Positions 1 to 11,365 of a DNA stretch of 11,365 bases are shown one piece after another (the first letter of the stretch is position 1; the number at the start of each line of letters is the position of its first letter). Source of the stretch: Dehalococcoidia bacterium (GTDB lineage Bacteria > Chloroflexota > Dehalococcoidia > GIF9 > AB-539-J10); NCBI GenBank assembly GCA_030612345.1, contig JAUWOB010000013.1, forward strand, positions 1-11,365. The letters run 5' to 3'. A program made the position numbers and the translations under genes. The notes below the pieces were generated by a model that saw nothing but the letters and a program-made list of their open reading frames with translations, did no database searches and was not told where the DNA came from.

Positions 1-208
<208 letters not shown>

Positions 209-1150
209 CTAGCGTTCGGCCGAGCTCAGACCGAGGCCTAGAATGGCCTCAACTGCTCGAACGTCTTGTTCGATTTGCGCTTTTAGCTCTTCGGAAGAGG
301 AAAAGCGTTGCTCATCCCTGAGTCTTCGCACGAACTCTACCCGTATCTCTTTATTATACAAATCGCCTTCATAGTCCAACAAGTGGGTTTCCACCCTTCT
401 TTCGCCCTCTCCAAAGGTGGGACGGATGCCAATACTGGTCGCCGAAGGATATTGCCTGCCGTCTACGTGAGCGATGGTAGCATAGATGCCATTACCCGGT
501 AATGCCTGCTGCGGCATCAAGCTCAGGTTGGCGGTGGGAAATCCTAGAACTCGTCCACGTTTGTCGGATGTTACGACTTTGCCCCTCAGGTGGAAATGGC
601 GACCCATCAGCCGTTCCACCTTTGTCATATCTCCCTGGACTAATGCCTGGCGGATGAGAGTGCTGCTCACTACTTCCTCATCAATTCTATAGGGGGAAAC
701 AGCTTCCACGCTGAAGTTCATGTCCCGTCCCAGCGAGCGGAGCATGCTGATGTTGCCCTCCTGGCCTCGCCCCAGAGCAAAGTCGGGCCCCACCATGATG
801 CCACGCATCTTGAGGTGTTGCTTGATCGATGACATGAACTCCCTGGCACTTAGCCGGGCCACCCGGCGAGTGAAAGTTAGCACTGCCACTATGCTTATGC
901 CTAGCTCTTGCAGGGCTTCAACCCTGTCCTCGAGGCTGCTAAGCCAGGGCAGCTGGTTATGCGGCTGTAATACCGATTGAGGATGAGGGTTGAAGGTTAC
1001 TACTCCGCTAAGCAGGTTTTGTTCTGCTGCTCGCTGCTGTAGTTTTTCCAGGAGATAGCGATGTCCTGCATGGACACCGTCAAACACGCCTTTGGCAAGT
1101 ATTGTTTCCTGGGGGGGAGTTATCCTGGCCAGTTCCTGCCCGATCTCCAT
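209..1150 (-). CDS. ribF: Bifunctional riboflavin kinase / FAD synthetase
   Basis: Converts riboflavin to FMN and then to FAD in the cytoplasm. At 313 residues it has the usual length for prokaryotic RibF. The N-terminal nucleotidyltransferase (FAD synthetase) domain shows GVFDGVHAGH at 21-30, FNPHP at 53-57, VGPDFALG at 120-127 and SSTLIRQAL at 162-170. The C-terminal riboflavin kinase domain shows GFPTAN at 203-208, GIYA at 221-224 and ETHLLDY at 254-260, with E254 the expected catalytic base. No key motif is missing. The ATG at 1150-1148 lies 4 nt after the aroF stop, with purine-rich sequence inside the aroF end (GAGGGTGAA) as a possible ribosome site. It is a housekeeping gene in the operon with aroH, aroF and tyrS. 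The link to aromatic synthesis may be indirect, since chorismate synthase (not in this window) needs reduced FMN. Confidence 0.96.
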   Translation of the reverse strand: MEIGQELARITPPQETILAKGVFDGVHAGHRYLLEKLQQRAAEQNLLSGVVTFNPHPQSVLQPHNQLPWLSSLEDRVEALQELGISIVAVLTFTRRVARLSAREFMSSIKQHLKMRGIMVGPDFALGRGQEGNISMLRSLGRDMNFSVEAVSPYRIDEEVVSSTLIRQALVQGDMTKVERLMGRHFHLRGKVVTSDKRGRVLGFPTANLSLMPQQALPGNGIYATIAHVDGRQYPSATSIGIRPTFGEGERRVETHLLDYEGDLYNKEIRVEFVRRLRDEQRFSSSEELKAQIEQDVRAVEAILGLGLSSAER

Positions 1151-1154
1151 GGTC

Positions 1155-2198
1155 TCAGGGTTTCACCCTCGCTCTTGGAATAGCTAGCTTTCTATTCCTG
1201 GCTTCGGCTAGAGGGCGTAATTGAGACATCAGGAGACGAAAGTTATCAAAGGTGAGCGATTGAGGACCATCCGCAAGCGCCAAGTCAGGATCAGGATGGA
1301 CCTCTATGAGCAGCCCATCCGCTCCGGCAGCTACTGCCGCCAGTGCTAGCGGAGGTACCAGATACCATTTACCTGTGGCGTGACTGGGGTCGGCGATAAT
1401 GGGTAGATGGCTGAGTTTCTGGACAATCGGTATAGCATTAATGTCCATAGTATTACGGGCATAGTTTTCAAACGTTCTGATTCCCCGTTCGCAAAGAATG
1501 ACCTGCTCATTTCCTTGCACCAGAAGATACTCTGCCGCCAGCAACCATTCCTGGACGTTGCATGCCATACCACGTTTGAGCAGAACCGGCTTCCGTGTTC
1601 TTCCCACCTCATCGAGCAGAACATAGTTCTGCATGTTTCTACTGCCAATCTGGAGTATATCGGCGTATTGGGCTACCAGATCAATGTCTTCCACCGCCAT
1701 GACCTCGGTGACTACGGGCATCTGGGTTTCATCGCCCACCTGCGCGAGTAGCCTGAGTCCGACCTCGCCCAGTCCGCGAAACTCGTAGGGCGACGTGCGC
1801 GGTTTGTAGGCGCCGCCGCGCAGCACAGTGGCCCCGGCTGCTTGGACAGCCTGAGCTGTGGTGAAAAGTTGGTCCTCGCTTTCTACAGCGCAGGGTCCAG
1901 CCATGACCACTATCTCATCACCACCAACAGCTACGCCATCCAGGTCGACTATGGTGTCCTGCGGATGGAACTCCCGGCTGGCAAGTTTATAAGGTTTGCT
2001 CACAGGTATCACCTGCTCCACACCGGGAAGCGATTCCAGGGCATCGCGAAGCCCGGGGACAGGTTGCCCCACTACCCCGACGACAACGATATGTCCAATG
2101 CCATGTGGTATGTACGCCTTTAGACCAGCATCTTCGATTCTGTTCGCGACCCGGCTGATTTCATCTTGGCTGCAATCGATTCTCATGACTACAATCAT
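1155..2198 (-). CDS. aroF: 3-deoxy-7-phosphoheptulonate (DAHP) synthase, type I-beta with regulatory N-domain
   Basis: Condenses phosphoenolpyruvate with erythrose 4-phosphate, the first step of the shikimate pathway. It has 347 residues. Residues 1-70 form a ferredoxin-like (ACT-like) domain of the kind that mediates Tyr/Phe feedback inhibition in Thermotoga-type enzymes. The TIM barrel follows, with GPCAVES at 101-107 (metal ligand C103), KPRTSPY at 132-138, RNMQN at 187-191, LKRGMA at 207-212, CERGIRTFE at 236-244, DPSHATG at 270-276 (metal ligand H273) and EVHPDPD at 299-305, which should supply the Glu and Asp metal ligands. The start is well supported: a GGAGG ribosome site at 2205-2209 lies 6 nt upstream of the ATG, inside aroH. 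The ATG overlaps the aroH stop in an ATGA arrangement. The paired gene aroH acts later in the same pathway. Confidence 0.96.
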
Positions 2199-2578
2199 GT
2201 GTTGCCTCCAACTGGTAGTGACGTTTTGTTCTTCAGCCTCTTCGCCTCTCCTAGGTAAACATGTGTGATCTCTTCAGATCCCTTTTCAGTATTCACAAGC
2301 ATCAGAATTCTGAGACAGCGGGGCAAATCGTTGGGGACATTCATCTCATGTCCACAGAGCAGAGCCAGATTGGTTGGCCATCCTAGCCCTCGCGTCGCTG
2401 CCGCAGGAAACTCAGCATTCAGGTCCGACGTGGTGGTAAAAAAAACGGCCGCTATGTCCCTGATATCAACCTCGTTAGCCTGTGTCATCTCCATAAGCAG
2501 CTCTTCGGTTGCCGCCAAAATGCTCTCCCTGCTATTTGCCGAAACCGTGATGGCACCTCTAATGCCACAGCACTGCAA
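2195..2578 (-). CDS. aroH: Chorismate mutase, AroH class
   Basis: Rearranges chorismate to prephenate, the branch point to Phe and Tyr. It is 127 residues long, like the trimeric Bacillus subtilis AroH, and the active-site residues fall at the same numbers as in that enzyme: R7, R63, C75, E78, R90 and Y108. This identifies it as the monofunctional AroH fold rather than the helical AroQ fold. The start is TTG at 2578-2576, preceded by AAGGAG with a 10-nt spacer. No ATG lies nearby upstream in frame, and the R7 numbering supports this start. It is the first gene of the leftward operon, about 138 nt downstream of the predicted transcription start, and its stop overlaps the aroF start by 4 nt. 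Confidence 0.95.
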   Translation of the reverse strand: MQCCGIRGAITVSANSRESILAATEELLMEMTQANEVDIRDIAAVFFTTTSDLNAEFPAAATRGLGWPTNLALLCGHEMNVPNDLPRCLRILMLVNTEKGSEEITHVYLGEAKRLKNKTSLPVGGNT

Positions 2579-2673
2579 TTTGATATCGCTCCTTCTCGGT
2601 TTAGAATAATAGCCTACTGTAATAGTATTCCTCTGTCCACCTTCATATCAAGAGTCGCTGGTCCACGGTCTTG

Positions 2674-2714
2674 CCACCCTCCCATCTACTGGCGTCCTCG
2701 AATGCGAAGGGTGG
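2674..2714 (-). promoter_or_regulatory. Inverted repeat at the start of the aro operon leader
   Basis: CCACCCT at 2674-2680 and AGGGTGG at 2708-2714 are perfect 7-bp inverted repeats separated by 27 nt. On the minus strand the pair begins about 2 nt after the predicted transcription start, so it could fold as a 5'-end stem in the leader. There is no T tract after it, so it is not a simple terminator. The AGGGTGG arm resembles part of the T-box core, but the rest of that motif is absent. Function unknown. Confidence 0.35.
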
Positions 2715-2722
2715 AATTATTG

Positions 2723-2751
2723 ATTATACCTTGTATACCATTATATCGCAA
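2723..2751 (-). promoter_or_regulatory. Sigma-70-type promoter of the aroH-aroF-ribF-tyrS operon
   Basis: Read on the minus strand, TTGCGA (2751-2746) and a perfect TATAAT (2728-2723) are separated by exactly 17 nt. Transcription would start near 2716. A weaker second candidate, TTGATA-N18-TACTAT, lies downstream at 2651-2622 and would give a shorter leader. The first is preferred because of its perfect -10 box and ideal spacing. Not experimentally known. Confidence 0.6.
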
Positions 2752-3044
2752 TACGATGTACTATTTATTATGAATGTAAAGAGTTTTTTCGTCAATACCC
2801 TTTGGGCATTTCAGTGCATTTTACGAACGATTTTTGTCAAGAATCTATGGCGCCAAGAACCCCGGGCCAAAAAAAGCCAGGTGAGGAGTAACTCGAAAGC
2901 ACGCTGCTCAGCCGGGCTCAGCGAGTATGCAGCCGCGGCCCGGTGATATCATTGGCCCTTGTTCGCTTGTCTGCTGGCAACCTCAGATGTTAAGATGACA
3001 AACAACATGCGTGCACCTATCGACGATGCCCCTGATTCTTAGAT

Positions 3045-3428
3045 ATGGAAAGGGAGAGCTTTGAGGCTCTCGTCGCGAGGGCGATCGATAATCTACCTCC
3101 GGAGTTTCAGGCCAGACTGGAAAATGTCGATATTGTGGTAGAGGATTGGCCTACGCGGCGGCAGCTAAGGCAGGCCAGGCTAGATCATCCCGGCCAGTTG
3201 CTTGGCCTTTACGAGGGCGTGCCTCAAACAAGGAGGGGCCGAGGGTACGGATTGGTTTTGCCGGATAAGATAAGTATCTTTCAAAGGCCTATAGAAGCGC
3301 AATGCCGCTTTGGCCATGAAATCGAAGCAAGAATAGAGGAGGTGGTGCGGCACGAAATAGCCCACCACTTCGGTCTCGACGAAAAGACCCTGCGGCGGAT
3401 AGAGGACGAGAAGCGCCGCAGAAAGTAA
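3045..3428 (+). CDS. Small zincin-like metallopeptidase family protein (PF06262-like)
   Basis: A 127-residue protein with the zinc signature HEIAHHFG at 103-110: H103 and H107 would bind zinc, E104 would be catalytic, and D112 or E113 is the likely third ligand. This single-motif layout at the C-terminus of a roughly 120-residue protein matches the 'metallopeptidase family protein' group (formerly DUF1025). In vivo substrates of that family are largely unknown. No signal peptide or membrane segment is visible, so it is probably cytoplasmic. The C-terminus is strongly basic (KRRRK). The ATG at 3045 lacks a clear Shine-Dalgarno, but no better in-frame start exists. The next gene starts 132 nt downstream on the same strand, so co-transcription is possible but not shown. 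Confidence 0.85.
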   Translation: MERESFEALVARAIDNLPPEFQARLENVDIVVEDWPTRRQLRQARLDHPGQLLGLYEGVPQTRRGRGYGLVLPDKISIFQRPIEAQCRFGHEIEARIEEVVRHEIAHHFGLDEKTLRRIEDEKRRRK

Positions 3429-3469
3429 CGGCAGGAAGTAGCCAACAGGCATCATGGTGGCTCAGTATC

Positions 3470-3492
3470 ATACTGCCGCTATTCGGCAGTGT
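3470..3492 (+). repeat. Hairpin between the metallopeptidase and aldo/keto reductase genes
   Basis: ACTGCCG (3472-3478) and CGGCAGT (3484-3490) form a perfect 7-bp stem around a 5-nt loop, extendable by a T-G and an A-T pair. An overlapping dyad CAGTAT-C-ATACTG (3463-3475) could compete with it. There is no T run on either side, so intrinsic termination is doubtful. It may be an mRNA processing or stability structure. Confidence 0.4.
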
Positions 3493-3560
3493 TAGAGGCA
3501 AGGCCGAAGAGCTGTACGGGGCCATGCGCTGCCGCCTGACAAAGGAGGGCGAGAAACGGA

Positions 3561-4235
3561 ATGGATACTATAAGGCTGGGCAGAACGGAGATGATGGTTT
3601 CCAGACTTGGGTTCGGCGGCATCCCCATTCAGCGGGTTTCTGAGGACGAGGCTGTGGCTGTGGTTCAGAGGTGTCTCCACTTGGGCGTTACCTTTCTCGA
3701 CACAGCTAATGCCTATACCACCAGCGAGGCACACATCGGCAAAGCCATGAAGGGGCGGCGGAGAGAGGTCGTCATCGCCACCAAGTCCGCCTCTCGAGGT
3801 CGCGAAGGTGTGGAGAGCCACCTCCAGATGAGCCTGGAACGTCTGGGAGTTGATTACATCGACCTGTATCAGTTTCACGGGGTCAGTGATTTCAAGTCCC
3901 TGGAGATAGTCCTCGACCCGAAAGGACCGCTGGCGGTGCTGGCGGAGGCAAAGAAGACCGGGGTGATAAGACACATCGGCATTACCTCACACCAGATCGA
4001 CGTAGCCAAGGAAGCCGTGAAATCGGACGGTTTCGAGACCTTGATGTTTCCCTTCAACTTTGTTACCTGCGAACCGGCCGACGAACTGCTACTCCTGTGT
4101 CGACAGCATGACGTGGGCTTCATCGCCATGAAGCCACTGGCCGGCGGAGCGCTGGACTGCGTGACCATCGCCTTCAAATACCTCTTCCAGTTCCCTGACG
4201 TATTGCCGATACCTGGCATCGAAAAAACCGTCTGA
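3561..4235 (+). CDS. Aldo/keto reductase, catalytic part (first piece of a frameshifted gene)
   Basis: NAD(P)H-dependent oxidoreductase TIM barrel of the aldo/keto reductase superfamily. The catalytic tetrad is visible as D47, Y52, K75 and H106 (DTANAY, TKS, QFHG). This piece has 224 residues and ends in GIEKTV at a TGA, too early for the family (about 320-370 residues). The missing C-terminal sequence lies immediately downstream in the +1 frame. Removing one A from the A6 run at 4222-4227 restores a GIEKPSEIEEI junction and one protein of about 347 residues. A ribosome site AAAGGAGG at 3541-3548 precedes the ATG with a rather long spacer. The complete protein would belong to the ferredoxin-fused aldo/keto reductases. 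The substrate is unknown. The defect may be a homopolymer sequencing error or a real mutation. Confidence 0.88.
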   Translation: MDTIRLGRTEMMVSRLGFGGIPIQRVSEDEAVAVVQRCLHLGVTFLDTANAYTTSEAHIGKAMKGRRREVVIATKSASRGREGVESHLQMSLERLGVDYIDLYQFHGVSDFKSLEIVLDPKGPLAVLAEAKKTGVIRHIGITSHQIDVAKEAVKSDGFETLMFPFNFVTCEPADELLLLCRQHDVGFIAMKPLAGGALDCVTIAFKYLFQFPDVLPIPGIEKTV

Positions 4236-4275
4236 GATAGAGGAGATTGTCCAGATCCTTGAACAACCGCGGGAA

Positions 4276-4605
4276 ATGAGCGAGGCACAGCAATGTGAGA
4301 TGCAGCGGCTGAGAGACGAACTGGGCACCAAGTTCTGTCGTCGTTGCGATTACTGCCAGCCCTGCCCTCAAGAAATACCGATAGCGACGGTGATGGTCGT
4401 CAACACCGTCCTCAAACGGATGCCGCTGGAGCGGCTGTTGACCGGCATGTTCGCCGATGCGGTGGGGAAGGGGGCCAACTGTACTGAATGCGGCGACTGT
4501 GAGGAAAGGTGTCCCTACCATCTTCCTATTCGCGAGATGATTGTGGAGCAGGTCCAGCGCTTCCGCGCAGCGAAGCGGCAATATGAGAAGTGGACTTCTA
4601 GCTAG
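4276..4605 (+). CDS. Ferredoxin-like 4Fe-4S C-terminal domain of the aldo/keto reductase (second piece)
   Basis: The C-terminal part of the gene begun at 3561. The open frame extends back to at least 4228 and encodes PSEIEEIVQILE, which fits the last barrel helix of an aldo/keto reductase, so the ATG at 4276 is probably internal. Two cysteine clusters follow: CRRCDYCQPCP (4336-4368), and CTECGDCEERCP (near 4483-4518), which has the usual CxxCxxCxxxCP pattern of [4Fe-4S] binding. This indicates an electron-transfer domain coupled to the reductase barrel. No separate ribosome site or promoter is seen before 4276. If the frameshift is real, this piece is probably not made and the gene is a pseudogene. 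Confidence 0.82.
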   Translation: MSEAQQCEMQRLRDELGTKFCRRCDYCQPCPQEIPIATVMVVNTVLKRMPLERLLTGMFADAVGKGANCTECGDCEERCPYHLPIREMIVEQVQRFRAAKRQYEKWTSS

Positions 4606-5101
4606 TTGTTATCCCCTCACACTTATAATGCAGATTCGTCTTGTGGTATGTCCCGATCCTCCTGAGCGGCAGGGCCATTACTCAAGTGACGAACTAACCG
4701 AATGTGCTGGCGAAGGTGGCCGGCCGAGGCTGCCTTAGCCCGCAAGGGCGCTCCAGCGCGAGCTGCACAAAAACCATTTTCCAGAGCAGCGTTACTGACT
4801 TTGCCCATATCATGACGCTCCTCTTGGCATGAGATAACTCGCTGGCTATAGTCTCCAGCTTAGGTAGAGCATACACCGGCTAGAAGTCGATTCACATGCC
4901 GGATTAAACCCGTTGGGACGTTGAGGCCACAGACAGCAGTGAAAATGCTAACCAACAAGGCAGCATCAAGAACAGTATACAAGCGTTGTGTACAGGGGGC
5001 TGCGTCCCAATCATAAACTGGTTGCCTCGATTTCCCGGGCTCGCCTTGTGTTAGAAATCGATGCCACTACAGGTTCATCCTGCATTGAAAGAGACTGGAT
5101 A
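4606..5101. other. Gene-poor region upstream of the lexA promoter
   Basis: About 500 nt without a gene I can support. Two short inverted repeats abut at 4738-4759: GCCC-GCAA-GGGC, and GCGCT-CC-AGCGC, which shares bases with the first. They could act as a weak terminator region for the aldo/keto reductase gene, although no T run follows. CCGGC and GCCGG around 4873-4899 form another small dyad. Two overlapping minus-strand frames (4623-4808 and 4694-4876) have no recognisable motif or ribosome site and may be chance or a decayed gene. A tRNA-like string (AGCTTAGGTAGAGCA near 4858) lacks the rest of a cloverleaf. Confidence 0.4.
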
Positions 5102-5130
5102 TTGACAGTCCATATTCTATGTGGTACACT
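5102..5130 (+). promoter_or_regulatory. Sigma-70-type promoter of the lexA-imuB-dnaE2 cassette
   Basis: A perfect TTGACA at 5102-5107 and TACACT at 5125-5130 (4 of 6 matches) are separated by exactly 17 nt. Transcription would start near 5137, inside the SOS-like box, so LexA bound there would block initiation or early elongation. Confidence 0.72.
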
Positions 5131-5131
5131 T

Positions 5132-5150
5132 GTTCTTAGAACGAATGTTA
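5132..5150 (+). promoter_or_regulatory. Probable LexA operator (SOS box, Gram-positive type)
   Basis: GAAC-GAAT-GTTA at 5139-5150 matches GAAC-N4-GTTC at 7 of 8 half-site bases. An overlapping perfect dyad GTTC-TTA-GAAC occupies 5132-5142. Both lie directly downstream of the -10 box, across the predicted transcription start and 28 nt before the lexA ATG, which is the usual place for an autoregulatory operator. Which of the two dyads LexA binds cannot be decided from one site. Confidence 0.65.
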
Positions 5151-5177
5151 TAGAAGGGATAAAGACAGGAGGCAGCC

Positions 5178-5828
5178 ATGAGAAAACACGGGGTCAGTAA
5201 GACTAGGGAGAACATTCTTAAATTCATACATGGCTTTATCGATGAAAGAGGTTATGCACCCACCGTTAGAGACATTGTCAAGGGCTGTAATCTCAGTTCC
5301 ACGGCTGTGGTGCAGCATCATCTGCACATTTTGGAAAGGGAAGGCCACATTCATCGTGACCCCAGAGTTGTTAGAAGTATTCAGGTGGCGGAGAGGGAAA
5401 AAGGTGAAGGGGAGGACAGTTTCCTGGTGCCACTTTTGGGAGCAATTGCCGCCGGGAAACCGATTCCTGTGCCAAATGCAGATACCTGGACCAAGACACC
5501 GGAAGAGACAATCAGGCTGACCACAGATATTGTGGGAGATAGAGGCAATATCTATGCCCTGAAAGTACAGGGGACGTCTATGATTGATGGTCTTATCAAC
5601 GACGGGGATATTGTAGTCATGGACGCAACGCAAACTGCTGATGATGGGGAGACGGTAGCTGTGTGGCTCAAAGATGAGCAAGAGGTGACGCTAAAAAAGA
5701 TCTACCGTGAACCAGGTCGCATTCGCCTTCAGCCGGCCAATATTGAGATGGAGCCCATGTATACCAGGCCTGAGAATGTTGAGGTGCAGGGGAAAGTGGT
5801 TGCTGTTCTGAGAAGACTGGACCAGTAG
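5178..5828 (+). CDS. lexA: LexA repressor / self-cleaving SOS regulator
   Basis: Transcriptional repressor of the SOS regulon, inactivated by RecA-stimulated self-cleavage. It has 216 residues. Residues 1-65 form the winged helix-turn-helix (YAPTVRDIVKGCNLSSTAVV at 26-45). A short acidic linker follows, then the S24 peptidase domain. The Ala-Gly cleavage bond is A92-G93 in GAIAAGKP. The catalytic serine is S134 (QGTSMIDG) and the general-base lysine is K173 (EVTLKK). All are present, so it should be an active self-cleaving repressor. The start is strongly supported by AGGAGG at 5167-5172 with a 5-nt spacer. An SOS-like box sits in its own promoter. imuB starts 14 nt after its stop with a very similar ribosome site, so lexA heads the mutagenesis operon. 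Confidence 0.96.
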   Translation: MRKHGVSKTRENILKFIHGFIDERGYAPTVRDIVKGCNLSSTAVVQHHLHILEREGHIHRDPRVVRSIQVAEREKGEGEDSFLVPLLGAIAAGKPIPVPNADTWTKTPEETIRLTTDIVGDRGNIYALKVQGTSMIDGLINDGDIVVMDATQTADDGETVAVWLKDEQEVTLKKIYREPGRIRLQPANIEMEPMYTRPENVEVQGKVVAVLRRLDQ

Positions 5829-5842
5829 TTAGGGAGGCAGTG

Positions 5843-7051
5843 ATGAGACTTGGCTGTTTCTTTTTTCCTCATTTTCCTGTTCAGGTCGAGGCAAGAGGGG
5901 ATGAGACATTGAGGGGCAGGCCGATTATTATTGGAGGCCTGCCTTATGAGCGAAAAACAGTTTATGATATTTCACAGGAAGCCTTAGACTGTGGCATCAG
6001 GACAGGCATGCCCCTGAGAGAGGCATATGCTCTATGCCCGCAAGGGTTATTCCTGCCCTTGGACGAAGAGAATTACAGCCAGGCCTTTACCGCTATTCTA
6101 ACTCTCCTGGCGGATTACAGCCCATTGGTGGAAGCAGGCGCTCCGGGTACTGCTTTCATTGATTTAAGCTATGAATCCAGTGAGCGCCGATTTGCCGCAG
6201 AGATTGCACAGTTAATCGAGAAGCTTTTCCACCTTCACTCTCTCATATCCGTGGCCTCAAATAAATTCGCGGCCTGGGCAGCCAGTCAGGTGGCCGGGCC
6301 AGGGGAGGTCATCGTTATTCCTGAGGGAGAGGAAAGGGATTTTCTCAAGGCCCTGCCTGTGTGTCTTCTACCTGCCTCATCCAGAACGCTGGAGTGGCTT
6401 GAATTGCTCGGCATCTGTCGCATGGGACAGCTGGTCAGTCTGTCCTCGCCAGCAGTCAGCCTGGAATTTGGCAAAGAGGGTGAGCGGTTATGGGCACTGG
6501 CTAATGGCATTGATGGGTCAAGATTAATTCCATGGAGTGAAGCGCCAATGCTGAAAGAGCAGATTTGTTTTGAGCCTGGGGCGGAGACCGTTGCTAAAGT
6601 TCTGGCCAGTGGAGATGAGCTTCTAACCAGGTTAAGCCAGCAATTGAAGGAACGCTGGCAATGCTGCCTCCGGCTAATAATATCCCTGCATCTTAGCAAT
6701 GACCATATCGTGGAACGAGTGGTTCATTTCAAAGAAGCGACTTCCTCACGAGAGATGATGTTACGCCACTTGAAGCATTGCCTGGAAAGAGCCAAATTCA
6801 CAGCTCCCGTAAGCGAAATGAGGCTGACCGTGACTGATTTATGCCCTGAAAGCGGTAGGCAAGCCTCGATTTCGTCGGTATTCATAGATGAGCCGCTGCG
6901 GCGCAGGGAAGGGCCGAGCGCAGAATCATTGTGCTCGGCGATAAGCTGGCTGCGAAAAAGGTATGGCAGATGGGTAGTGGGCAGGATGCTGGCTAAACAG
7001 AATAGCGCATTACCGGAGGATTCCTTTTCCTTCACCGGATTTGATCTCTAA
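5843..7051 (+). CDS. imuB: ImuB-like Y-family polymerase homologue lacking catalytic acids
   Basis: A 402-residue protein of the UmuC/DinB fold, homologous to ImuB, the adaptor that links DnaE2 to the replication clamp. Typical Y-family landmarks remain: VYDISQEALDCGIRTGMPLREA at 40-61 (finger region) and YSPLVE at 92-97. The metal-binding acids are gone. Motif I reads FFPHFPVQVE (F7 and P9 where D7 and D9 stand in Dpo4), and the usual SIDEAFLDL reads APGTAFIDL at 100-108 (G102 and T103 for the catalytic Asp-Glu). A non-catalytic scaffolding role follows by analogy with ImuB. I see no clear clamp-binding QLxLF motif at the C-terminus. The ATG at 5843 is preferred, with GGGAGG at 5832-5837 and a 5-nt spacer; a GTG at 5840 adds one residue. 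The next gene begins 3 nt after its stop. No imuA is adjacent. Confidence 0.87.
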   Translation: MRLGCFFFPHFPVQVEARGDETLRGRPIIIGGLPYERKTVYDISQEALDCGIRTGMPLREAYALCPQGLFLPLDEENYSQAFTAILTLLADYSPLVEAGAPGTAFIDLSYESSERRFAAEIAQLIEKLFHLHSLISVASNKFAAWAASQVAGPGEVIVIPEGEERDFLKALPVCLLPASSRTLEWLELLGICRMGQLVSLSSPAVSLEFGKEGERLWALANGIDGSRLIPWSEAPMLKEQICFEPGAETVAKVLASGDELLTRLSQQLKERWQCCLRLIISLHLSNDHIVERVVHFKEATSSREMMLRHLKHCLERAKFTAPVSEMRLTVTDLCPESGRQASISSVFIDEPLRRREGPSAESLCSAISWLRKRYGRWVVGRMLAKQNSALPEDSFSFTGFDL

Positions 7052-7054
7052 GAG

Positions 7055-7309
7055 ATGAGTAGGCTATTCAGAGAAGCTATCAAACTGGAAGTTCAGGAAG
7101 ATATCCAACACAATCCGGTTACCTTCCTCTACAAAGGGAGGAGAGTGGGAGTGGCAGAGACGCTAAAGCGATGGCGGGTAGCTCAGGAATGGTGGAAGAG
7201 CCCGGTGGAAAGGGAGTACTTCCAGGTCAGGATTGAATCCGGCACTGTCTGTGAACTCTACCGGAATCTTCTCACCGGAGTTTGGTACCTGCAACGCATC
7301 TATGACTAG
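7055..7309 (+). CDS. DUF6504-like small protein in the mutasome cassette
   Basis: An 84-residue protein, basic in the middle and rich in aromatic residues. The pattern (basic loop FLYKGRRVGV at 24-33, W40, W46-W47, Y55, a strand with ELYRN at 67-71, and GVWYLQRIYD at 75-84) resembles the DUF6504 family from memory: short beta-rich proteins ending in W-x-L-x-R-x-x-D, often found beside or fused to ImuB-type proteins in Actinobacteria and related phyla. No catalytic motif, metal site or signal peptide is seen. It starts 3 nt after imuB and ends 16 nt before dnaE2, which implies co-translation with both. Its biochemical role is unknown. By position it could be an accessory subunit of the ImuB-DnaE2 mutasome. 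The family name is a recollection and not a computed match. Confidence 0.75.
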   Translation: MSRLFREAIKLEVQEDIQHNPVTFLYKGRRVGVAETLKRWRVAQEWWKSPVEREYFQVRIESGTVCELYRNLLTGVWYLQRIYD

Positions 7310-7325
7310 GAGTGTTAATATCTCA

Positions 7326-10300
7326 ATGGAAGCGAGGGGAAGTTACGTTGAACTTCACTGCCACTCCAATTTCTCTCTCCTTGATGGGGCATCTCATCCG
7401 GAGGATCTGGCAAGCCGGGCAGCCGATCTGGGCATGCCTGCGTTAGCACTTACCGACCATGATGGCCTATATGGAGCTATCCGCTTCTACAAAGCATGCC
7501 TCAAGGCCGGCATCAAGCCTGTTATTGGAGCGGAGATAACGCTGGAAAATGGAAATCACCTTACGTTGCTGGCGAAAAATAACGAAGGTTACTCCAACCT
7601 GTGCCGGCTGATAACCAGATCCCAGTTAGAGCACAGGAAAGGCAGTCCCGCCCTTAATCTAGCAACCCTCGCCCGGCACTCTGCCGGCCTGATTTGCCTC
7701 TCTGGCTGCCGGCAAGGAGAACTGGTCAGCTTGCTCATTTCCGGACGCAGGGAGCAAGCTCATCGGGTAGCCAAACGGTACATTGAAATCTTCGGCCAAG
7801 GGAACTTCTATGTAGAGCTGCAAAACAATTTCTACCTCGAGGATGGACGGCTTTGCCGTGCTTTAGTGGAGCTGGCTGGAAGCCTCAAGCTGGGTTATGT
7901 AGCCACCAACAATGTGCATTATGCCCGAAAGGAAAGCCACAAACTGCACGATGTGCTCACATGTATTAGGAACCGAACAACTCTGGACGAGTGTACCTCC
8001 TTGAGACTGAATTCGGAATTTCACCTCAAGTCCTTTGCGGAAATGGCACGGCTTTTCCAGAATCGCCCCGAGGCGATTTCAAATACGCTTGCCGTAGTTG
8101 AGCAATGCAATGTCAATCTCGATTTCTCAGGGTATCGTTTTCCGGAATTTCCCTTACCCCGACATGAGACTGCCGGCGGCTATCTGGCTCAGTTATGCCG
8201 GCAGAAGATACACGAAAGGTATGGACCCGATTTCATTGGGATGAGTTCAGAGATAGAGGCCAGGGTCAATCACGAACTTCAGCTAATAGAGAAGCTGGGA
8301 TTATCAGCCTACTTTCTTATCGTGTGGGACATTATGGACTATGCTAAGAGAAATGGAATCCCTGCCCAGGGCAGGGGCTCGGCAGCCAATTCCATAGTTG
8401 CTTATATCCTGGGCATAACCGGGGTCGACCCTGTAAAGAACAAGCTATTTCTGGGCAGATTTCTGAATGAAGAGATGTCATCCATCCCCGACATCGATAT
8501 AGATGTTTCCACGAGTCACCGGGAAAAGCTCATCCAATACGTTTATGAAAAGTATGGACAGGAACACACCGCCATGGTCTGTACCTATGTCACCTTCCAG
8601 GCCAGAAATGCCATAAGAGAGATGGGCAAGGCAATGGGGCTGCCCGCTTACCTGGTTGATAGGATGGCAAGGTCGGTTTCAGTATATGGAGCCAAAGATA
8701 TAGAGCAAGACCTGGCCAGCATCGAGGAATTTCGACCGTATTTCACTTCTCAAAATAGTAACCAGCCTATCTGGCAGGAATTCGTGTCTCTTTGCCGGCA
8801 GATTTACGATTTTCCCAGACATCTATCAATTCATAACGGGGGGATGCTTATCTCTTCCTGTCCGCTCACCGACATAGTGCCCCTGGAAAAAGCTACCATG
8901 CCAGGCAGGATAGTCTGCCAGTGGGATAAAGACAGCACTGCTGATGCCGGCTTAATAAAAGTGGACTTGCTTGGCTTGAGAATGCTATCTCTCATTCACG
9001 AAGCTTGCGCGCTTGTTGAGCAGAAGCACAATCCCGACTCATCGGGACTCGACCTGGATAGATTACCTTTGGACGATGAGAAGGTCTACGATATGATCTG
9101 CCGGGGCGACACAGTGGGCGTCTTTCAGGTAGAGAGCCGGGCTCAGATGCAACCCCTGCCGCAGACAAAACCACGCTCCATCGATGACCTGACTATTGAA
9201 GTTGCTCTCATCAGGCCGGGACCTCTGCAGGGCAATATGGTGCATCCCTATATCAGGAGGAGGAAAGGCCTGGAACAGGTAACATACCTGCATCCCAGGC
9301 TTAAGCCAATACTGGAAGATACCCTGGGGGTGCTCCTATTTCAAGAGCAGGTGATTCAGGTTGCCGTTGTCGTAGCCGATTTTACGCCGGGCGAGGCCGA
9401 CTCTTTGAGAAGGGCAATGAGCAGGAAGAGATCCAAAGAGGCCATGAACGAAATGAGACAGAAGTTTATTGACGGCGCCAAGAAGCACGGCGTAGCGACA
9501 ACCCTCGCCGATTGCATCTTCGCAGCCCTGCAGGGCTTTGCGGAGTATGGCTTTTGCAAGAGCCATGCCGCCCGTTTTGCGCTTTTATGCTATCGATCGG
9601 CCTGGCTCAAGAAATACCATCCGCCTGAGTTTTATTGTGCCCTGCTCAATAACCAGCCCATGGGGTTTTACGCTCCGGAGGTCATTGTGCGGGATGCCAA
9701 GAGACATGGAGTTGATGTATTACCCGCAGACATCAACAGGAGCCGCGTCAGATGCACCATTGAAGGTGGCAGGGTCAGGCTCGGTTTTATGTATGTAAAG
9801 AAGTTGGGAGAGAAAGCCATGAGCCAGATAGTAGTAGAAAGGGAGAGGACACCTTATCTTTCGCTGGCAGATTTCTATCTTAGAACCAGGTTGGAGAGGA
9901 AGTCCGTGGAAAACCTCATCCTGGCCGGTGCCTTTGATTCTTTCCTGCCCGCCAGGGCCGGGCTCGCCTGCCGAAGTCTCTCGCCTGCTGAAGTCACCTG
10001 CCCGCCAGGGCCTGGCAGGCGGGTACGGCGAGCAGGTACGGCGAGCAGGCAGGCGGATGGCTGCCAGAAGAGGCAGCTATTGTGGCAGCTCGGTCTCCTG
10101 GAGAAGAAAGGCCCGGGGGAATTGCCCTTGGAATTCAGCCATACCAGGGTTTCCCTGCCTGACTTCACTGAACTCGAGGAGATGAAAGTAGATTATGAAG
10201 TGCAGGGATTATCCACAAAACACCATCCCATGCAGGTACTGAGAAAAGGCATATCCAGGGATGGCCTGCTTAAAAGCTCTGAGATTGCCCGACTTTTGCC

Positions 10301-10598
10301 CAATACCCGGGTAAGGTTAGCCGGCTATGTCATCACCAGACAGAGACCTGCCACTGCCAAGGGTTTTGCCTTTATGACGCTGGAGGATGAGGAGGGGATG
10401 GTAAACGTAGTAATCAAACCAGATGTGTATCAGAATTACCGGCAGGTTTTCAAGCTCGAGCCACTGATCGTGGTCGAAGGAATCATCCAGAGGCGGGATG
10501 ACATCCTGAATATCATTGCCCAGACGCTAATCCCGCTTCGACATGAAGAGGAAAGGCAGCACGGCCTGTCTGAACCCCACTCGGCCTACCCGGATTAG
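7326..10598 (+). CDS. dnaE2: Error-prone DNA polymerase III alpha subunit DnaE2 (ImuC)
   Basis: C-family translesion polymerase of the SOS mutasome, 1090 residues from the chosen start. Order: PHP domain (HCHSNFSLLDG from residue 11, TDHDG), then the polymerase core with catalytic aspartates D391 and D393 (PDIDID) and D547 (IKVDLLGL), then the finger/HhH region, and an OB fold near 995-1060 (LAGYVITRQRPATAKGFAF). DnaE2-type signatures are EVALIRPGPLQGNMVHPY and LLNNQPMGFYAPE. The PHP site looks degenerate (NNVHY instead of the usual NDVHY, ELQNN where a His is common), so proofreading is doubtful. The start at 7326 follows GGAG at 7309-7312. The open frame reaches back to 7233 but would overlap the previous gene by 77 nt, and homology begins at VELHCHS. 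Residues about 874-915 are an in-frame GC-rich repeat insertion. Confidence 0.93.
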   Translation: MEARGSYVELHCHSNFSLLDGASHPEDLASRAADLGMPALALTDHDGLYGAIRFYKACLKAGIKPVIGAEITLENGNHLTLLAKNNEGYSNLCRLITRSQLEHRKGSPALNLATLARHSAGLICLSGCRQGELVSLLISGRREQAHRVAKRYIEIFGQGNFYVELQNNFYLEDGRLCRALVELAGSLKLGYVATNNVHYARKESHKLHDVLTCIRNRTTLDECTSLRLNSEFHLKSFAEMARLFQNRPEAISNTLAVVEQCNVNLDFSGYRFPEFPLPRHETAGGYLAQLCRQKIHERYGPDFIGMSSEIEARVNHELQLIEKLGLSAYFLIVWDIMDYAKRNGIPAQGRGSAANSIVAYILGITGVDPVKNKLFLGRFLNEEMSSIPDIDIDVSTSHREKLIQYVYEKYGQEHTAMVCTYVTFQARNAIREMGKAMGLPAYLVDRMARSVSVYGAKDIEQDLASIEEFRPYFTSQNSNQPIWQEFVSLCRQIYDFPRHLSIHNGGMLISSCPLTDIVPLEKATMPGRIVCQWDKDSTADAGLIKVDLLGLRMLSLIHEACALVEQKHNPDSSGLDLDRLPLDDEKVYDMICRGDTVGVFQVESRAQMQPLPQTKPRSIDDLTIEVALIRPGPLQGNMVHPYIRRRKGLEQVTYLHPRLKPILEDTLGVLLFQEQVIQVAVVVADFTPGEADSLRRAMSRKRSKEAMNEMRQKFIDGAKKHGVATTLADCIFAALQGFAEYGFCKSHAARFALLCYRSAWLKKYHPPEFYCALLNNQPMGFYAPEVIVRDAKRHGVDVLPADINRSRVRCTIEGGRVRLGFMYVKKLGEKAMSQIVVERERTPYLSLADFYLRTRLERKSVENLILAGAFDSFLPARAGLACRSLSPAEVTCPPGPGRRVRRAGTASRQADGCQKRQLLWQLGLLEKKGPGELPLEFSHTRVSLPDFTELEEMKVDYEVQGLSTKHHPMQVLRKGISRDGLLKSSEIARLLPNTRVRLAGYVITRQRPATAKGFAFMTLEDEEGMVNVVIKPDVYQNYRQVFKLEPLIVVEGIIQRRDDILNIIAQTLIPLRHEEERQHGLSEPHSAYPD
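9944..10070 (+). repeat. GC-rich palindromic/tandem repeat insertion inside dnaE2
   Basis: The 16-mer CCTGCCCGCCAGGGCC occurs at 9944-9959 and again at 9997-10012. The second copy forms a hairpin: 12-nt arms 9996-10007 and 10013-10024 around a GGGCC loop, with 10 Watson-Crick pairs, one T-G and one C-A. A 13-mer GTACGGCGAGCAG is then tandemly duplicated at 10023-10035 and 10036-10048. GCTCGCC (9962-9968) is inverted as GGCGAGC (10027-10033). The segment is much more GC-rich than its surroundings. It is read through in frame as about 40 Arg/Pro/Ala/Gly-rich residues between AGAFDSF and RQLLWQLG, a place where DnaE proteins are normally nearly continuous. It resembles REP-like palindromic elements inserted into coding sequence. 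Confidence 0.7.
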
Positions 10599-10652
10599 CT
10601 CATGCAGCCTTCCGTTGCCCTGATCTCGAGCCCGGAGTAAAATGACAGCAGA

Positions 10653-11132
10653 GTGGACAAACAAGCACAGCACCAGGACACGCCCGGCGACGGCCCGACC
10701 TTGAGAATCAAGAAACTATACCGCGATGCCCGCTTCCCCCTGTGCGCCACGGAAGGCGCCTCCGGGCTCGACCTGTTTGCCTGTATCCAAGAGGGGGAGG
10801 GACGGATCGTGCTCCAGGACAAGCCGAAGCTGATTGGGACAGGCATTGCAATAGAAGTACCTCGAGGTTACGATGCTCAAGTAAGACCCAGATCCGGTCT
10901 ATCGGCAAAGGGCGTCATGGTTGCCTTAGGCACGGTGGACAGCGACTATAGAGGCGAGGTCATGGTAACGATGTATGTTCTGGGGCAAGGCAATAGCTTT
11001 GAGATCAAGCATGGTGACAGGATAGCTCAGTTGGTCATAGGCAAGCTGGCCGACCTGCCTATGGCGGTAGCTGACGAGCTTACGCCTACGGAAAGGGGGG
11101 CACAAGGCCACGGCTCCACGGGCATTGGCTGA
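10653..11132 (+). CDS. dut: dUTP diphosphatase (dUTPase), trimeric type
   Basis: Hydrolyses dUTP to dUMP and pyrophosphate, keeping uracil out of DNA and feeding dTMP synthesis. The five trimeric dUTPase motifs are present, numbering from the GTG at 10653: ASGLDLFA (37-43), RPRSGLS (78-84), GTVDSDYRGE (93-102, catalytic D96, substrate-facing Y99), GDRIAQLVI (121-129) and RGAQGHGSTG (148-157). In the last motif the uracil-stacking aromatic, usually Phe, is His (H153). The start is uncertain. GTG 10653 gives 159 residues but its GGAG is about 15 nt away. TTG 10701 gives MRIKKLYRDARFP, closer to normal dUTPase N-termini (143 residues), and overlaps the stop of a 20-codon frame beginning at ATG 10642. 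It lies 54 nt after dnaE2, possibly in the same SOS operon. Confidence 0.92.
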   Translation: MDKQAQHQDTPGDGPTLRIKKLYRDARFPLCATEGASGLDLFACIQEGEGRIVLQDKPKLIGTGIAIEVPRGYDAQVRPRSGLSAKGVMVALGTVDSDYRGEVMVTMYVLGQGNSFEIKHGDRIAQLVIGKLADLPMAVADELTPTERGAQGHGSTGIG

Positions 11133-11133
11133 A

Positions 11134-11365
11134 ATGGGAAGAATCCGCATAGGTACCTGTTCCTGGACCGACCCTACGCTGGTCAGTTCCGGACGCTTTT
11201 ACCCTGATTCTGCACAATCCGCCGAAGCCCGCCTTAAGCATTACGCCGGTCAGTTCGACCTCGTTGAAGTAGATAGCTGCTATTACGCGCTGCCCAATGA
11301 AAGGAATAGCTATCTCTGGGCAGAGCGGACGCCCGACGGCTTTCTGTTTGATTTCAAGGCTTTCA
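11134..11365 (+). CDS. DUF72 (YecE-like) family protein, N-terminal part (runs off the window)
   Basis: The first 77 residues of a DUF72 protein. IGTCSWTD at 6-13, RFYPDSA at 21-27, LKHYAGQFDLVEVDSCYYALP at 34-54 and FLFDFKAF at 70-77 follow the family pattern of an IGtsgW start, FYP, yyA..F..vEvn.tfY and f.f.vKa. DUF72 proteins have a TIM-barrel-like fold and their function is not established. The ATG at 11134 lies 1 nt after the dut stop, so translation is probably coupled and no separate ribosome site is needed. The position after dnaE2 and dut suggests, but does not prove, a link with DNA damage or nucleotide metabolism. The gene continues beyond the window. Confidence 0.9.
   Translation, partial: MGRIRIGTCSWTDPTLVSSGRFYPDSAQSAEARLKHYAGQFDLVEVDSCYYALPNERNSYLWAERTPDGFLFDFKAF

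Follow-up and report, generated by a model that had tools for sequence, protein, structure and literature searches.

A probable damage-induced mutasome with a separately encoded ImuB-C domain in an uncultured Dehalococcoidia bacterium

The mutasome of Caulobacter, Mycobacterium and Pseudomonas consists of ImuA, ImuB and the error-prone polymerase DnaE2 under LexA control, and its ImuB fuses a catalytically dead Y-family polymerase (PolY) to an ImuB-C domain. ImuA-free arrangements have been described in several published accounts, which are cited here from the parts of each that were available. The gene set lexA-imuY-imuB-C-dnaE2 is known in at least 20 Deinococcus species, and in D. deserti, which lacks imuA, an 80-residue protein is a standalone ImuB-C and ultraviolet (UV) mutagenesis is lost without ImuY, DnaE2 or RecAC. 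The available part of that study reports no imuB-C mutant, and states that in Caulobacter RecA is needed for induction only, the point being left open for Deinococcus (PMC8072749). A solo ImuB-C accompanying DnaE2 and an inactive DinB (PMC3765255), and an inactive PolY (iPolY) with ImuB-C and DnaE2 in which RecA replaces ImuA (PMC6511836, PMC12926913), have also been described. Here, a cassette of this type was examined in an 11,365 nt stretch (hereafter the window) of an uncultured Dehalococcoidia bacterium (GenBank assembly GCA_030612345.1, contig JAUWOB010000013.1, positions 1 to 11,365), where it is probably a damage-induced gene set for error-prone DNA copying.

The cassette comprises lexA, a Y-family gene, a gene for a protein of 84 amino acids (aa) and dnaE2, all on the + strand with intergenic gaps of 14, 3 and 16 nt. 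Its features are as follows.

5102..5130, + strand, sigma-70-like promoter TTGACA-17-TACACT (promoter scan)
5132..5150, + strand, putative LexA operator, GTTCTTAGAAC (5132-5142) overlapping GAACGAATGTTA (5139-5150), just 3' of the -10
5178..5828, + strand, lexA, SOS repressor (TIGR00498 166.8 bits, cut-off 110.95; Peptidase_S24; LexA_DNA_bind)
5843..7051, + strand, imuY, predicted inactive Y-family polymerase (iPolY), 402 aa (IMS, PF00817, E 5e-27; IMS_C, PF11799, E 4.5e-5)
6917..6988, + strand, RecA-NT-like motif in the PolY tail, residues 359-382 (profile tests, model)
7055..7309, + strand, imuB-C, standalone ImuB-C domain, 84 aa (DUF6504/PF20114 E 6.8e-7, 29.9 bits, cut-off 24.2)
7326 (ATG)..10598, + strand, dnaE2, error-prone C-family polymerase (NF004225 1140.7 bits, cut-off 939)

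The imuY start was placed at the ATG at 5843, giving the gap of 14 nt; an in-frame GTG at 5840 would give a gap of 11 nt and a protein of 403 aa. All four frames are open, and the window DnaE2 contains PDIDID and KVDLLGL, which we take to be its catalytic motifs. The coordinates and the LexA-type box agree with the initial annotation, which had placed the four genes at these spacings behind one SOS-type promoter, and, as it had also reported, no RecA-like gene was found among the window genes scanned against families. The gene order was kept in all five named Dehalococcoidia/Chloroflexi relatives, which are metagenome-assembled genomes (MAGs), with cassette proteins 65-93% identical to those of the window (dnaE2 of locus L035 is cut by a contig end), and the arrangement is therefore no chance event.

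The Deinococcus cassette consists of these four genes in identical order, with lexA first, a small ImuB-C between PolY and dnaE2 and no imuA found, and this order was also seen on a plasmid of Deinococcus sp. QL22 (lexA-PolY-DUF6504-dnaE). It differs in belonging to another phylum, in that its DnaE2 and that of the window do not form one clade, and in that D. deserti has been tested whereas the window is known from sequence. A Thermus brockianus plasmid carries S24/PolY/ImuB-C/dnaE. The putative DnaE2X-iPolY-ImuB-C-RecA module (PMC12926913) and an operon of Kyrpidia tusciae (PMC6511836), as far as these sources were available, share with the window a dead PolY with a RecA-NT motif, a standalone ImuB-C and DnaE2, without ImuA; the motif was found here at the level of the profile and was not distinct in the window sequence alone. 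The ImuA-ImuB-DnaE2 mutasome shares the dead PolY, the ImuB-C domain, DnaE2 and LexA control, but in the window ImuB is split between two genes, and no ImuA was found in the window, its own assembly or the cassette-bearing relatives G134 and G112. A Geobacter lexA-imuB-C-polY operon, as described in the available part of PMC6511836, also combines lexA and a standalone ImuB-C with PolY, but that PolY is apparently active and there is no dnaE2. The window cassette adds a lineage to a known system and is no new kind.

It is very likely that DnaE2 of this cassette carries out translesion synthesis on a two-piece ImuB, under the control of LexA and with the assistance of RecA. LexA would bind the box next to the -10 and so repress the operon to which it belongs, and DNA damage would lead, through RecA filaments and LexA self-cleavage, to production of a three-part mutasome. 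The dead ImuY would serve as a scaffold whose RecA-NT-like tail binds RecA, with RecA replacing ImuA, while the standalone ImuB-C would supply the beta domain of the canonical ImuB C-terminus and couple the scaffold to DnaE2, which would carry out the error-prone synthesis. What the sequences themselves show is which genes are present and in what order, that the 84-aa protein is homologous to ImuB-C, that PolY has lost its catalytic residues, that the tail motif stands out as a profile, that recognisable imuA is rare in the class and that the box recurs; every binding step and the phenotype are predicted by analogy with D. deserti and with the AlphaFold complexes in the available part of PMC12926913.

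The identity of the small protein was examined by comparison with ImuBs linked to ImuA. PF20114 matched the last ~75 residues of these proteins above its cut-off in Afipia (431-504 of 507, E 4e-7) and Sinorhizobium (429-504 of 507, E 6e-6), and below it in Rhizobium (430-502 of 505, E 0.007). A profile of the 84-aa family (68 sequences) was aligned by hhalign to six ImuBs linked to ImuA (that of locus L131 and five encoded on named plasmids) at columns 417-510 of 511 with a probability of 96.7 (p 3.4e-10), and control profiles of RecA, ImuA and iPolY gave 0.1-0.3. By this homology, the 84-aa protein annotated as DUF6504 is no extra factor but the usual C-terminus of ImuB, the ImuB-C domain, encoded as its own gene, and DUF6504 gains a name, ImuB-C. 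The AlphaFold2 model is all-beta with six strands (mean pLDDT 87.7), and a structure search with it found no convincing solved relative, in agreement with the description of ImuB-C as a beta-barrel to which no PDB structure is closely related (PMC12926913, available part). The earlier proposal of a variant mutasome in which a small protein takes an accessory role holds as to the missing imuA and a probable accessory subunit, but the ImuB-C identity of that protein had been missed.

The Y-family gene had been called ImuB-like; it had been missed that its product is an inactive polymerase without an ImuB-C domain, as only IMS and IMS_C were found in it by Pfam, and that the arrangement was already published. 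Because the catalytic triad positions of the window PolY hold F7, G102 and T103, we infer that it is catalytically dead. The residues D, D and E were kept together in none of the 87 PolYs at the survey loci described below (76 separate, 11 fused), with none of the three kept in 76 and a gap at a triad position in 7, and three Pol IV controls keep all three. The window PolY is Y-family by sequence and matched Pol IV entries of the PDB; its model has a mean pLDDT of 78.6.

The motif in the PolY tail (window SAESLCSAISWLRKRYGRWVVGRM; RecA of relatives KEKAVELAIEQIERQYGKGSIMKL) is the counterpart of the RecA-NT motif described in the available part of PMC6511836, a proposed docking site for RecA, which would stand in for ImuA. 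A profile of 54 tails, retained from 76 at under 70% identity, matched with z 6.0 (0/2000 column permutations as high, hhalign E 2.2e-4), and one of the window genus (6 rows) with z 5.8 (0/1000), two control segments giving z -0.8 and 1.6. When separate PolYs were taken singly, the best place was within the last 100 residues in 56 of 76, and 42 of the 76 tails had no more than 25 of 500 shuffles scoring as high. Tails in the class also share GRQxSLF before the RecA-NT motif, where the window reads GRQASISSVF (6854-6883). We take GRQxSLF to resemble a beta-clamp-binding motif.

Upstream of the cassette, GAACGAATGTTA (5139-5150) is the sole RAACN4GTTW in the window (0.65 expected), and 7 promoter-like sites were found in the region against 5.3 expected, so that neither the window promoter nor the window box is significant taken alone. 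However, a box of the form NAACN4GTTN was found upstream of 10 of 15 lexA genes (mean 0.44 after mononucleotide shuffling, 0/1000 shuffles as high; L044 = L032 and L043 = L034, each entered once) and in all five named relatives (L032 and L034 read via the copies L044 and L043), whereas none was found upstream of recA in 19 relatives (L143-L161). A TTGACA hexamer and a -10-like hexamer, the latter judged by eye, precede all 15 lexA genes examined. From this recurrence it is likely that LexA autoregulates the cassette operon via the putative box. Since no LexA-type box precedes recA in the 19 relatives, recA seems to lie outside the control of the cassette LexA box and may lie outside this SOS regulon. 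That the operon is decayed or unexpressed is extremely unlikely: the source is a MAG only and no support for decay was found, and the four frames are open, the order is kept in 5/5 relatives at 65-93% protein identity and all five have the box.

The distribution of the cassette was surveyed with an ImuB-C profile, which matched 100 of 197 genomes of the class at 108 places. One of these is the window, 100 were fetched, and seven were not fetched at length (G153, G011, G130, G093, G002, G112:C70 and the second match in G113:C9). Among the resulting 101 loci, 90 have a standalone ImuB-C and 11 have PolY and ImuB-C in one frame. The counts of neighbours are lower bounds, as some loci stop at contig ends: PolY lies directly upstream of 74 of the 90 standalone genes, dnaE2 directly downstream of 58, and both flank 49; a further 12 have dnaE2 within 7 kb, five have neither in view, and lexA is in view at 12 of the 101 loci. 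With PolY upstream at 74/90 and neither PolY nor dnaE2 at 5/90, the small protein does not occur mostly apart from imuB and dnaE2, a pattern that would have spoken against the initial annotation. The cassette seems to be patchy within the window genus, because no ImuB-C match at E <= 0.001 was found in three members that are 95-99% complete (G097, G155, G188).

Several observations weigh against the proposed mechanism. The window genome as assembled contains no recA, and the window tail taken alone gave only z 2.3 (16/500 shuffles as high), with the best-scoring place near residue 53 of the open frame; the tail of L044 was likewise indistinct (76/500 shuffles as high), the hhalign probability of the tail profile was just 44.9, and the tail helix (359-374) was modelled at pLDDT ~60. 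The RecA-NT signal belongs to the family and is weak for the window sequence alone. Neither the small gene of Thermus nor a Y-family open reading frame of Microbacterium is matched by PF20114 in Pfam, and the window DnaE2 does not group with the DnaE2s of the Deinococcus and Thermus cassettes, which lie on a separate long branch in the DnaE2 trees (their letter make-up was flagged there). ImuB-C precedes dnaE2 without a recognisable PolY in L093, L104, L117, L120, L123 and L170, the DnaE2s of which form a separate deep clade, and L046 (6326-7252) and L050 (6319-7252) consist of lexA then ImuB-C only, with no PolY or dnaE2 in view.

The indistinct window motif would suit a system in which ImuY, ImuB-C and DnaE2 suffice and RecA serves only to induce the operon, as in Caulobacter (PMC8072749, available part, where Deinococcus is left open). 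However, Caulobacter has ImuA and none was found here, and the motif is strong as a window-genus profile, making this reading unlikely. The lexA-ImuB-C loci and the five standalone loci with neither partner would suit another suggestion, put forward by Aravind et al. in the available part of PMC3765255, that ImuB-C is a damage-recognising or regulatory protein and not a coupling subunit of DnaE2. This too is doubtful, as canonical systems fuse ImuB-C to a dead PolY, ImuB-C sits on the PHP domain of DnaE2 in an AlphaFold model of the complex from M. tuberculosis (PMC12926913, available part), and 58/90 standalone genes directly precede dnaE2. RecA-assisted synthesis on a two-piece ImuB remains the favoured mechanism.

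As ImuA could be encoded elsewhere, whole genomes were searched. No ImuA was found in the window genome with the ImuA model, but at 960 kb this genome is 69% complete and even recA was not found, so its silence means little and the absence of imuA rests on relatives. Neither cassette-bearing relative (G134 and G112, each 95% complete) has a detectable ImuA, and each has one RecA. RecA was found in 19 of 20 genomes (the window genome and 19 relatives), and the further matches scored 18-24 bits, most of them lying in frames 460-675 aa long. Across the 197 class genomes, the ImuA model gave one strong match (in G136, itself among the sources of the model) and three at 16-18 bits, and the independent query of Burkholderia ImuA found G136 (E 5e-8) and, in 11 other genomes, nothing better than E 0.006. 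The model (A3) recognises an ImuA from a beta-proteobacterium that is not part of it (40 bits) and misses an actinobacterial candidate and the RecA-like neighbour of Thermomicrobium, so its reach is limited. On a Thermomicrobium roseum plasmid (L187, 2703-8168), a RecA-like gene, a Y-family-like gene (Pfam IMS_C only) and dnaE2 stand in a row, and the first can be regarded as a RecA-like alternative to ImuA. This blindness of A3 and the incomplete window genome leave room for a divergent or distant imuA completing a classical ImuA-ImuB-DnaE2 mutasome. However, PF00154 would catch the Thermomicrobium type (85.7 bits), yet of 184 class genomes with a RecA match 176 have just one and eight have more; with G134 and G112 lacking ImuA, and PolY and ImuB-C being separate genes, unlike in the classical system, such a hidden imuA is highly improbable.

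Among the 11 fused loci, imuA is recognisable beside one only, L131 in G136. Its DnaE2 groups with proteobacterial canonical DnaE2s, which suggests that this canonical locus was acquired by transfer. The other ten fused genes (L098, L110, L121, L125, L126, L130, L132, L135, L138 and L139), in nine genomes, have DnaE2s that form one clade with support of 100, nested among those of split loci (8 rows in the first tree, 7 in the mixture-model tree), and forcing fused and canonical rows together was 151 log units worse (approximately unbiased (AU) test, p-AU 1e-4, for a clade chosen after the first tree had been viewed). The first tree used 82 of 89 rows after thinning, with L136 replaced by its fuller copy L170, and carried a warning that long branches meet between DnaE1 and the clade lacking PolY, and the 47 rows of the mixture-model tree were picked by hand; unusual letter make-up was flagged in both (L131, Deinococcus, Thermus and others). 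The nine genomes gave no ImuA within the reach of the queries, and one clade apparently re-fused PolY and ImuB-C without a detectable ImuA and independently of canonical ImuB, as judged from these trees. The RecA-NT motif of this clade, in the stretch before ImuB-C, looks weakened in one of two tests: the profile match is weak (z 1.1; three canonical ImuBs gave a similar z of 1.2), but 7 of 10 fused tails pass the single-sequence test at 25/500 shuffles. A gene for a SOS response-associated peptidase (SRAP) lies near the fused cassette in L121 (10384-11103) and L132 (8894-9589), both by Pfam, and in L098 (11466-12173), by similarity.

One further gene follows the cassette in the window.

10653..11132, + strand, dut (dUTPase), 54 nt 3' of dnaE2

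Possibly a read-through gene outside the conserved cassette, it was seen next to the cassette at one other locus, L032, when 11 loci were checked; several of these stop at or before dnaE2, and two (L034/L043) are one contig.

The window locus alone would not surprise a specialist; what deserves to be followed is the pattern across the class together with the second fusion. With this finding, the known range of the ImuA-free mutasome reaches a class that is large and for the most part uncultured. On balance, we lean towards the split, ImuA-free mutasome being the common form in Dehalococcoidia, with one lineage having fused the dead polymerase and ImuB-C again, independently and without acquiring ImuA. 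If so, fusion and the recruitment of ImuA would be separable steps, as opposed to one route on which ImuB became fused a single time and ImuA came with it. As split, independently fused and canonical versions coexist in the class, the order of mutasome assembly can be tested by comparison.

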